The notes under the pieces are model-generated. The model did not search any database and had not been told where the DNA came from. It worked only from the letters and a program-made list of their open reading frames with translations. A stretch of DNA of 64,000 nucleotides from contig NC_006177.1 of the NCBI RefSeq assembly GCF_000009905.1, positions 3,358,595 to 3,422,594 of the forward strand. The letters are read 5' to 3'. This DNA comes from Symbiobacterium thermophilum IAM 14863 (GTDB taxonomy: Bacteria; Bacillota; Sulfobacillia; Symbiobacteriales; Symbiobacteriaceae). The position numbers and the translations under genes are program-made. Shown here one piece after another: positions 33,211 to 55,386 of the stretch (the first letter of the stretch is position 1; each line of letters opens with the position of its first letter).

Positions 33211-34017
33211 CTACGCCTCCGCCGCGGCGTCCGGCCAGTTCAACTCGTACATCAGGCGGATCCCCTGGAGGGTGAGGTGCGGGTCGACCATCTGGATCGT
33301 CCGGCTTTCCACCGCGACCATCGAGGCGAGCCCGCCCGTCGCCACGACCACGGGATCGGGGCCGTCTGGTGCGATCTCCTGCGTCAGCCGGCGCACCAGG
33401 CCGTCAGCCAGGCCGGCAAAGCCGTAAAGAATCCCCGACTGCATGCTGGCGGCGATGTTCCGGCCGATCACCGACTTGGGCCGCTGGATCTCCACCCGCT
33501 GCAGCAGGGCCGTCCTGCGGGTCAGCGCTTCGGCGGCGGTGCGGATGCCGGGCGCGATCACGCCGCCCAGGTACTCCCCCTCGGCGCTCACGCACTCCAG
33601 CTTGGTGGCGGTGCCGAAGTCCACCACGATGACCGGCCGCCCCTGGGGCCGCCCGTAGATCTCCCAGCCAGCCAGGGCGTTGACCAGGCGATCGGTGCCC
33701 AGGGCGGCGGGGTTGTCGTACCGGACCGCCGGCAGGCTGCGCAGGTCGCCGGTCAGCTCCTTCAACTGCACCTTCAGGTACTGCTGCACCGCCCGGCTGA
33801 GGACGGGGTTGAGCGGTGGCACCACGGAGGCCATCGCCGCGCAGGTGATGTCCGCGGGCGTGTGTCCGTCCCGCTCCAGCAGCTGGATCAGCTGCAGCCC
33901 GTATTCGTCCCAGGTCTCCGCGCGGTTGGAGGCCATCCGCCACATGCAGATGAGCTCATCCTCCAGGAAGAGCCCCGCGGTAATGTTGGTGTTCCCGATG
34001 TCGACAGCGAGCAGCAT
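33211..34017 (-). CDS. coaX: Type III pantothenate kinase, copy 1
   Basis: A 268-residue CoaX of the ASKHA fold, which phosphorylates pantothenate in CoA synthesis. Visible motifs: the phosphate loop AVDIGNTNITAGLF at residues 4-17, D in LGTDRLVNALAGWEIYG, the third motif VVDFGTATKLECVSAEGEYLGGVIAPGI and the C-terminal VVATGGLASMV. In the third motif the usual T-x-D after GTAT reads K-L-E, a conservative but notable change. The gene ends 85 bp before the lipoprotein and begins three bases after the second coaX stops, so the two copies are transcribed together. Confidence 0.93.
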   Translation of the reverse strand: MLLAVDIGNTNITAGLFLEDELICMWRMASNRAETWDEYGLQLIQLLERDGHTPADITCAAMASVVPPLNPVLSRAVQQYLKVQLKELTGDLRSLPAVRYDNPAALGTDRLVNALAGWEIYGRPQGRPVIVVDFGTATKLECVSAEGEYLGGVIAPGIRTAAEALTRRTALLQRVEIQRPKSVIGRNIAASMQSGILYGFAGLADGLVRRLTQEIAPDGPDPVVVATGGLASMVAVESRTIQMVDPHLTLQGIRLMYELNWPDAAAEA

Positions 34018-34020
34018 GGG

Positions 34021-34815
34021 CTACCTTCCCCCCCGGGCGTGGGCCTGGTGCCGTTCGTAGATGATGCGCAGTCCGGTCAACGTGAGGGAGGGATCGCAGT
34101 ACTGGATCGTCGCGCACTCGCCGGCCAGCAGCTCTGCCTGCTCGCCGGTCGCGACGACCTTGCACCCCTTTCCCTCCGGATCCAGTTCGGCCATCATGCG
34201 CTCCACCAGGTCGTCCACCAGACTGGCGAAGCCGAAGATGATCCCCGACTGCATGGCGTGGACCGTGTTCCGGGCCAGGGCCCGCGGCGGCCGGACCAGC
34301 TCGACCCGGGGCAGCTTGGCAGCGAACTGGAACAGCGCGTCGGCCGAGACGACAATCCCGGGCGCGATCACGCCGCCCAGGTACTCTCCCCGGGCGGAGA
34401 TGGCGTCGAGGATGATGGCGGTGCTGAAGTCCACCACGATCAGCGGCCCGCCGTACTTGTCAAAGGCCGCCACTGCGCCCACGATCCGGTCCGCCCCCAC
34501 CTCGCGCGGGTTGTCGTACCGGATCATCATGCCGGTGCGGACGCCGGGACCGACCACCAGCGGCTTCAGGTTGAAGTACTTCTGGCACATCCACTCGAGC
34601 GTGGGGACCAGCGGCGGGACCGAGGACGCGATGGCCACGGCCGTCACCTGGCCGGATGAAAAGCCGGCGCGCGCCATCAGCTGGGTGAACAGCATCCCGT
34701 ACTCGTCCATGGTGCGGTTCGGATCGGTGGTCACCGTCCATTCCGCCAGCAGGTTCTGACCCTCGAACACGCCGGCGACCGTGAATGTGTTCCCGACGTC
34801 AATGGTGAGCAGCAT
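34021..34815 (-). CDS. coaX: Type III pantothenate kinase, copy 2
   Basis: A 264-residue CoaX started at ATG 34815 with GGGGAGGT upstream. Motifs: TIDVGNTFTVAGVF at the phosphate loop, VGADRIVGAVAAFDKYGG and VVDFSTAIILDAISARGEYLGGVIAPGI. The central G of DFGTA is S here, and the aspartate after the T-A-I segment is retained. Sequence identity to the adjacent copy looks moderate by eye, so the duplication is old. One copy may be the main kinase and the other a divergent paralogue; sequence alone does not say which. An extended -10 promoter lies about 70 bp upstream. Confidence 0.93.
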   Translation of the reverse strand: MLLTIDVGNTFTVAGVFEGQNLLAEWTVTTDPNRTMDEYGMLFTQLMARAGFSSGQVTAVAIASSVPPLVPTLEWMCQKYFNLKPLVVGPGVRTGMMIRYDNPREVGADRIVGAVAAFDKYGGPLIVVDFSTAIILDAISARGEYLGGVIAPGIVVSADALFQFAAKLPRVELVRPPRALARNTVHAMQSGIIFGFASLVDDLVERMMAELDPEGKGCKVVATGEQAELLAGECATIQYCDPSLTLTGLRIIYERHQAHARGGR

Positions 34816-34883
34816 CCGTGCGCGACCTCCCCGGTGGCCGGCCTGCTCCGGTGCGGGCCCGGCTCCACGAAAACTCATGGACG

Positions 34884-34915
34884 ATTATAGCATGACTGCA
34901 TGCGGCCCGGGTCAA
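34884..34915 (-). promoter_or_regulatory. Extended -10 promoter of the coaX-coaX-lipoprotein genes
   Basis: On the minus strand TGCTATAAT (34884-34892) is an extended -10. TTGACC (34910-34915) lies 20 bp upstream, inside the loop end of a long hairpin, so the -35 contribution is doubtful. Confidence 0.55.
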
Positions 34916-34932
34916 CGACCCGGGCCGCATGC
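34898..34932 (-). terminator. Perfect 16-bp GC-rich hairpin ending the nadC-coaX intergenic transcript
   Basis: GCATGCGGCCCGGGTC pairs perfectly with GACCCGGGCCGCATGC across a three-base loop. No T run follows, so it could act as a terminator or as a stable 3-prime end. Confidence 0.6.
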
Positions 34933-35091
34933 CGAGCGCTATGCAGTTCGGAGTCGATAACCCCAGCACCTCCACGGGGACAGACTCGGAAGTCCCCGGA
35001 TCCCCCCTGGCGGCCCGATGACCGACTCCTGCGGGAAAGGCCCGCCGCCGTTCCGCCTGGGGTTTCGGTCCCTTCCTGTACCTCTATTATA
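34933..35091 (-). ncRNA. Candidate structured RNA between nadC and coaX
   Basis: A TATAAT (minus strand, 35086-35091) would start a transcript near 35079 that ends at the 34898-34932 hairpin, about 180 nt with no convincing coding frame. It can fold as a closed multibranch: AACCCCAG/CTGGGGTT (35057-35064 with 34959-34966) encloses GCGGG-AAAGG-CCCGC (35031-35045) and CGGGGAC/GTCCCCG (34975-34998). It matches no riboswitch or SRP RNA that I can recall. Alternatives are a coaX leader or simple intergenic DNA. Confidence 0.4.
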
Positions 35092-35123
35092 CCGGATGGC
35101 CGGGCCCCGTGACCTGTCAATCT

Positions 35124-35987
35124 TCAGTCTTCTTTTTCCAGCGCTTTCGGATCCCCGAAGGATAGGCGGAAGGGCAGAGGCCTGGCCGCGTGGGCGAGGT
35201 CGCAGACGCTGATGATGTCCACGCCCGTCTTGGCCAGTTCGGTGAGGTGCGCCGGATCGGCGGAGCCGCAGACCTCCAGTGCGGCCCTGCCGGCGACCAT
35301 CTCCACGGCCCGCTTCACGGTCTCGGGATCCATGCCGGTGAGCACCAGGATGTCCGCGCCCCCATCGACCCCCTCCTGCACCTGCTCCAGCGACACCACC
35401 TCCACGGCGATCCGGCTCGTCGGCGGCGCGCCCTTCCGGGCGGCCACCACCGCCTCCCGTACGCCGCCCGCCAGCGCGAGGTGGCCCGCCCGTACCAGGA
35501 TCCCGCCGGTCGGTCCGTAGGGCTGAACCTGGCCGCCGCCGATCCGCACCGCGTATTGCGCGATCACCCGCAGGTCGGGGACCGTCTCCCATCCGGCGAC
35601 GAGGCGGGCGTGGTAGTACTTGATCGCGTCGGCCAGCTGGCGGGTCGCGGTGGCGATGCCGCTCATCCTCTGCAACAGGCTGACCGCCACCCGCTCGGCC
35701 GTGAGGATGGGCCGTGCAGGACCGGAGACCGAGGCCACGGGGACGCCGTCGTCGACGGCGCCGCCCTCCGGCACGAGCCGCTCATAGACCAGCTCGGGGT
35801 CCACCGCCCGGAAGACCGCCTGGGCCACCGGGTGCCCGCACAGCACGCCCGCCGCCCCCGCAACGATCGTCGCCGTGCACCGGGCGTCTTCCGGCACCAC
35901 GGCCGACGTGGCCAGGTCGCCGGGGCCCACGTCCTCCAGAAGGGCCCGCCGCACCAACTCCTCCACGGCAACTGGGTTCAGGGTCAT
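35124..35987 (-). CDS. nadC: Nicotinate-nucleotide pyrophosphorylase (carboxylating)
   Basis: A 287-residue quinolinate phosphoribosyltransferase that makes nicotinate mononucleotide in NAD synthesis. Motifs: LVRRALLEDVGPGDLATSAVV at the N-terminus, LLQRMSGIATATRQLADAI, IRIGGGQVQPYGPTGGILVRAGHLALAGG for the quinolinate/PRPP site, and IAVEVVSLEQVQEGVDGGADILVLTGMDPE in the barrel. In many family members the last of the basic residues at the H-R-x-G-L-x-D site is conserved; here that segment reads VRIGGGQVQP, which is variant. The start is ATG 35987 behind GAGGAGGT. It follows folK by 57 bp, so it may belong to the folate transcript. Confidence 0.92.
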   Translation of the reverse strand: MTLNPVAVEELVRRALLEDVGPGDLATSAVVPEDARCTATIVAGAAGVLCGHPVAQAVFRAVDPELVYERLVPEGGAVDDGVPVASVSGPARPILTAERVAVSLLQRMSGIATATRQLADAIKYYHARLVAGWETVPDLRVIAQYAVRIGGGQVQPYGPTGGILVRAGHLALAGGVREAVVAARKGAPPTSRIAVEVVSLEQVQEGVDGGADILVLTGMDPETVKRAVEMVAGRAALEVCGSADPAHLTELAKTGVDIISVCDLAHAARPLPFRLSFGDPKALEKED

Positions 35988-45718: not shown

Positions 45719-45748
45719 ATTATAGGAACCGAAAAACCGGGGAGGCAA
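45719..45748 (-). promoter_or_regulatory. Promoter of the hut-folate operon
   Basis: TTGCCT (45743-45748) and TATAAT (45719-45724) on the minus strand are 18 bp apart, giving a leader of about 24 bases before hutH. No HutP-type UAG triplet array is visible in that short leader. Confidence 0.65.
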
Positions 45749-55225: not shown

Positions 55226-55265
55226 TTTTGTAAGGGCCGCCTGCGATTTCCATCCAGGAGAAGAA

Positions 55266-55305
55266 AGCACCCGGCGCTGGCTCCTGCCAGCGCCGGGTGC
55301 TTTGC
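55266..55305 (-). terminator. Terminator of tRNA-Glu
   Basis: A perfect 17-bp stem, AAAGCACCCGGCGCTGG with CCAGCGCCGGGTGCTTT and a six-base loop, lies five bases after the tRNA 3-prime end. Confidence 0.9.
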
Positions 55306-55310
55306 CATTG

Positions 55311-55386
55311 GCGACCCCAACGGGATTCGAACCCGTGCCGCCACCGTGAAAGGGTGGTGTCCTAGGCCTCTAGACGATGGGGTCGT
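55311..55386 (-). tRNA. tRNA-Glu (anticodon TTC)
   Basis: A 76-base tRNA with encoded CCA. The acceptor stem GACCCCA pairs with TGGGGTC, the T arm is ACGGG-TTCGAAT-CCCGT, and the anticodon arm CCACC-CTTTCAC-GGTGG gives anticodon TTC (complement of 55350-55352). It reads GAA and GAG codons. It is a single-gene unit between spoIIE and moeA. Confidence 0.98.

Follow-up and report, generated by a model that had tools for sequence, protein, structure and literature searches.

Sequence elements between nadC and coaX

What is the block of approximately 180 nt that lies between nadC and coaX in Symbiobacterium thermophilum, and does it belong to coaX or stand as a gene of its own? We addressed this question in a stretch of 64,000 nucleotides, hereafter the window, from a genome that consists of a single contig (G000, 3,566,135 bp), and in related genomes. 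The initial annotation had proposed either an RNA gene or a coaX leader, folded as a multibranch. By comparison with relatives, a gene with a second promoter for coaX stood up, while the proposed multibranch structure did not.

On the minus strand the order is nadC, the upstream neighbour (35124-35987), then a TATAAT, about 180 nt, a 16-bp hairpin, TGCTATAAT and coaX (34021-34815). We take the names nadC, coaX and, in relatives, folK from recognition of the sequences, nadC also following the initial annotation. coaX, a type III pantothenate kinase and the first of two tandem paralogues, lies in an ORF that is open over 34021-34878, and its start was placed at 34815 by comparison with relatives. 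The two paralogues are adjacent (33211-34815, minus strand) and 46% identical; adjacent coaX pairs were found in all eight genomes of the order, the second copy being truncated where the contig stops in G003 and appearing as two split matches in G006.

The TATAAT noticed on the minus strand before the block is indeed present (35086-35091) and is presumed to be the -10 element of an RNA promoter; it reads TATAAT in G000 and G001, TATACT in G002 and TATGAT in G004. From it we delimit a candidate non-coding RNA of about 182 nt (34898-35079, minus strand), with an inferred start at 35079, 7 nt past the -10, and an end set at the terminal hairpin. This hairpin (34898-34932, minus strand), the presumed end of the transcript, has the 16 perfect base pairs ascribed to it, a 3-nt loop and no U-tract. 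Just beyond it, the second extended -10 that had been pointed out, TGCTATAAT (34884-34892, minus strand), is the presumed coaX promoter, and its TATAAT is kept, past the hairpin and shortly before coaX, in all four genomes that carry the block.

TATAAT occurs only three times in the 64-kb window, both strands included, with two copies bracketing the RNA block, and TGCTATAAT is the sole TG-N-TATAAT. Only one perfect hairpin of the window is longer than that of the block, and in eight mononucleotide shuffles of the window the longest perfect hairpin was at most 13 bp, as compared with 16 bp at 34898-34932. A simple promoter scan gave no acceptable -35 at 16-18 nt for either -10, and a simple terminator scan gave no hit at the block, where the hairpin has no T-tract. 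Elsewhere in the window, the third TATAAT (45719-45724, minus strand) precedes an ATG that has a GGGAGG-like site, and the longest perfect hairpin, of 18 bp (55264-55303, AAAGCACCC...GGGTGCTTT), lies directly downstream of tRNA-Glu (55309-55384, minus strand), of which it is probably the terminator.

Conservation and coding potential

A search of related genomes, which the initial annotation had suggested, returned homologous blocks in G001, G002 and G004, and the conserved stretch runs from the -10 to the hairpin in these four genomes of two genera. Excluding gaps (2, 8 and 16 gap columns for G002, G001 and G004, respectively), the RNA body of G000 is identical to that of G002 at 127/140 positions, to that of G001 at 110/142 and to that of G004 at 87/141, as compared with 100/137, 78/135 and 54/109 of the fourfold sites of coaX (one-sided Fisher p 9.6e-5, 3.5e-4 and 0.036, the fourfold sites being probably near saturation for G004). 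In the spacer from nadC to the -10, 20/26, 11/21 and 6/25 positions are identical in the same three genomes. The four carriers share a 3' core, GACUCCGAACUGNAWAGCG (34937-34955, minus strand), of which the first 12 nt are invariant.

Such conservation could in principle reflect a small protein gene, either an 81-codon TTG-start ORF (34875-35120, minus strand) or a 58-codon GTG-start ORF (34799-34975, minus strand), as both frames are open in the window and parts of each are open in G002. However, indels put the halves of the 81-codon ORF in different frames in G002, G001 and G004, and the 58-codon frame meets stops in G001 and G004; we give this explanation hardly any credence. The remark that some 180 nt lack a convincing ORF is borne out by the loss of reading frames across the block among relatives, through indel shifts and through stops in G001 and G004, and by sequence comparison the block is conserved and non-coding.

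Occurrence among genomes

The carriers comprise four of the five genomes of the family Symbiobacteriaceae and four of the 154 genomes of the class; G000, G001 and G002 belong to one genus and G004 to another genus of the same family. When 61 genomes were searched at the DNA level, the block turned up in both other members of the genus and in G004, the other listed matches (E up to 10) being short, and covariance models recovered the four carriers at E <= 3e-32 per genome. The covariance models gave no convincing fifth carrier among the eight genomes of the order or the 154 of the class, and a covariance model gave no convincing further carrier among 398 genomes drawn evenly from the phylum, a draw in which, among the four carriers, only G000 shows a match. 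When the eight genomes of the order were searched with up to 2 mismatches, every carrier had a single copy of the core GACTCCGAACTGNAWAGCG, and none of the four non-carriers had one. The fifth genome of the family (G003), which is 77% complete, has the coaX locus without the block. Among the genomes searched, the candidate RNA is restricted to the Symbiobacterium-related lineage.

Weaker covariance-model matches, whose E-values hold for one genome and are roughly calibrated, were taken as chance. With model R1 these were 11 further genomes of the 154 in the class (E 9e-4 to 0.07), the best matches in the four non-carriers of the order (E 0.0015, 0.0099, 0.14 and 0.54) and second places in G002 (1.6e-4 and 0.0075); with model R2 they were five further genomes of the 154 at E <= 0.01 and three of the 398 in the phylum draw. 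The weak matches are short or partial. At 20 weak loci, the 12-nt core is found with one mismatch in L103, with two in two loci and with three or four in the rest, and at L083 a two-mismatch core sits inside the weak match. All eight weak loci checked (L081, L083, L084, L102, L103, L105, L106 and L107) lie wholly inside open frames of at least 100 codons, the one at L103 being presumably methionine sulfoxide reductase B. A 38-nt match in G018 from the first DNA search (E 7.9e-5) is not among the covariance-model matches of the class. Exact-pattern scans were likewise set aside: the contig scan returned two contigs of carriers and one from Prevotella, the flank of which is unlike the block, and the viral scan returned four contigs with unrelated flanks.

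RNA structure

The fold of the block has a z of -2.84 with the terminal hairpin and of -0.11 without it, the latter no better than shuffles. The multibranch had been proposed to be closed by AACCCCAG/CTGGGGTT. This pairing exists (35057-35064 with 34959-34966) but is unused as a closing stem in minimum-energy folds, and in the more distant G004 only four of the eight pairs are kept. For this stem, 26 of 32 cells are paired and one pair is changed on both sides, with 277 of 500 shuffles as high; furthermore, a competing helix pairs the CCCC run about equally well.

From four sequences, RNAalifold predicts a closing stem, an arm starting CCCC..GGGG, a GCGGG-CCUUU-CCCGC hairpin and, besides the terminal hairpin, a weak arm located in the 3' half. 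In the putative closing stem of this consensus (CAG/CUG, GGG/UCC and CGA/UCG; 35078-35064 with 34944-34958, minus strand), 35 of 36 cells are paired and the substitutions lie on one side only. The small GCGGG-CCUUU-CCCGC hairpin (35031-35045, minus strand) is nearly invariant in the four carriers, and in the terminal hairpin nine core pairs are invariant and the 7-nt GGG-CCC spacing is constant in all four. In a model-fitted alignment, 91% of the cells of the consensus fold pair, a level as high in 16 of 500 shuffles, while versions slid along the alignment reach 31-44%. With only four sequences, no more than two pairs of the consensus fold are changed on both sides, which 140 of 500 shuffles equal, and 74 of 500 shuffles attain its covariation score. 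An open helix scan gave as its best helix one with three doubly changed pairs of six; 17 of 300 column shuffles reach it, and a parallel-strand control equals it in doubly changed pairs and length. Since shuffles and the parallel-strand control match the covariation signal, the fold beyond the terminal hairpin is unproven.

Both the CCCC run and the GACUC core have alternative pairings. A new structured RNA class limited to the Symbiobacteriaceae might be imagined, an orphan RNA with the invariant GACUCCGAACUG core and mutually exclusive pairings that would sense or regulate coenzyme A or NAD supply from its place in the nadC-coaX locus; this strikes us as improbable. An action of the RNA on coenzyme A or NAD supply, if true, would be of wider interest.

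Separability from coaX

In the non-carriers of the order, coaX lies directly behind nadC (G003 and G007) or folK (G005 and G006), and the 300 nt preceding coaX in these four genomes contain no TATAAT on either strand. The RNA is intact in G001, where the contig that holds it together with nadC breaks off within a group II intron. Within the 5' part of this intron (L039:11325-11413), a match to RF02003 starts 28 nt past the hairpin (29.5 bits, E 5.8e-5, below the gathering score of 49), and at L039:11325, 5 nt past the hairpin, stands GTGCG, which the usual start of group II introns resembles. The G001 contig with coaX opens with the 3' end of a group II intron (L063:1-90; RF00029, 40.6 bits, gathering 40), followed by TGCTATAAT and then by coaX. 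We infer that the two ends, on separate contigs, belong to one intron between the hairpin and the coaX promoter. According to PMC8919778, bacterial class C group II introns integrate immediately behind intrinsic terminators, whether or not these have a U-tail; if the G001 intron is of this class, its placement fits the hairpin being a terminator. Taken together, the placement of the intron, the presumed coaX promoter past the hairpin and the gene order of the non-carriers favour a separate RNA gene.

The same observations bear on a cis-acting coaX leader, in which the P1 transcript would sense a signal such as a coenzyme A metabolite or, because of nadC, NAD, and the hairpin would be a conditional terminator whose read-through would add to coaX expression. 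In G000, G002 and G004, RNA and coaX are linked and share a strand, which would fit a leader. In G004 they are together without nadC as the immediate upstream neighbour: that contig extends a further 580 nt upstream, and these contain an opposite-strand ORF and no nadC. The alternative pairings of the CCCC run and the GACUC core also speak for a leader. However, coaX has a separate TATAAT past the hairpin in all four carriers, the group II intron apparently lies between hairpin and coaX in G001, some 80 nt separate the block from the coaX start at 34815, and none of the four carriers has a U-tract after the terminal hairpin; we hold a leader to be rather unlikely.

Another explanation is a control region acting at the DNA level, with the palindrome GCGGCCCGGG-N7-CCCGGGCCG and its neighbours binding a protein for the coaX promoter and no stable RNA being made. 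In its favour, both the arm sequence and the 7-nt spacing are kept in the four carriers, beyond the needs of a plain terminator. Yet conservation spans the whole 180 nt from the -10 on, and in G001 the intron apparently parts an intact palindrome from the promoter, which leaves such a region distinctly unlikely in our view. Elsewhere in the G000 genome, an exact GCGGCCCGGG-N(3-12)-CCCGGGCCGC palindrome occurs just once, at L061 (G000:C1:1155339-1155369).

A candidate trans-acting RNA gene

We lean towards reading the block as a small non-coding RNA gene that ends at the hairpin and acts in trans, with coaX under a promoter of its own. The RNA would be transcribed from the promoter with its -10 at 35086-35091 (minus strand), and the 16-bp GC hairpin would most likely end the transcript, serving as a terminator that lacks a U-tract; coaX would be transcribed from the extended -10 just beyond. 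Given the promoter-like site, the separability from coaX and the invariant segments, we judge a trans-acting regulatory RNA most likely, which is a guess as to function; it might act via the CCUU hairpin loop and the GACUCCGAACUG core, which are invariant and exposed. Transcription, termination and action in trans are steps that we infer from the sequence. Weighing against this reading are the lack of a good -35 and of a U-tract, the unexceptional folding of the body, a covariation signal no stronger than in the controls, and the linkage to coaX in G000, G002 and G004. When the complement of the 12-nt core was considered as a target, no site common to the four carriers was found besides the RNA locus: it occurs only at that locus in G000, G001 and G002, and in seven places, including the locus, in G004.

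coaX appears to have gained its own promoter where the RNA gene came between it and its operon, and we favour the idea that the end of the RNA gene forced or accompanied the new promoter. For a lineage of Bacillota with little RNA annotation, the locus provides a further candidate RNA gene, one that is conserved and that Rfam 15 does not contain. No prior description of the RNA was found in the open literature searched, including the accessible parts of PMC2965389 and PMC8919778.

Comparison with known RNA families

At gathering score, Rfam 15 gave only tRNA-Glu in the 64-kb window, outside the block, and at E up to 10 the window gave four weak matches, far below gathering scores. The scans took in the copies of G000, G001 and G004: the G001 copy had no match at E up to 10, and the G004 copy had a single weak match, to RF02353, which covers the hairpin (13.8 bits, gathering 39). 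The initial annotation had recognised no riboswitch, SRP RNA or 6S RNA, and the Rfam scan of the block agrees, having returned none.

6S RNA is about 180-200 nt long, with its own promoter and no ORF, and the block is like it in length, in its own, here presumed, promoter and in the lack of an ORF. It is nevertheless not 6S RNA (RF00013), which has no match at the block; the 6S RNA of the genome is at G000:C1:2589371-2589565, and G001, G002 and G004 each have a 6S match above cut-off elsewhere. Unlike the terminal hairpin of the block, the hairpin that follows the 6S gene of G000 carries a TTTTT. The small bacterial SRP RNA (RF00169) is, like the block, short, GC-rich and structured; it was rejected as well, with no match at the block and an SRP RNA at G000:C1:2130193-2130277. 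With riboswitches and attenuators in 5' leaders, such as NAD+ riboswitches, the block shares a position upstream of a cofactor-biosynthesis gene and a hairpin before that gene, but it has no Rfam riboswitch match and coaX has its own promoter-like site past the hairpin. Bacterial trans-acting sRNA genes, of which the staphylococcal Rsa RNAs are an example, differ from the candidate, whose terminal hairpin has no U-tract; they are like it in being intergenic and lineage-restricted, with their own -10, a terminal hairpin and a C-rich hairpin loop.
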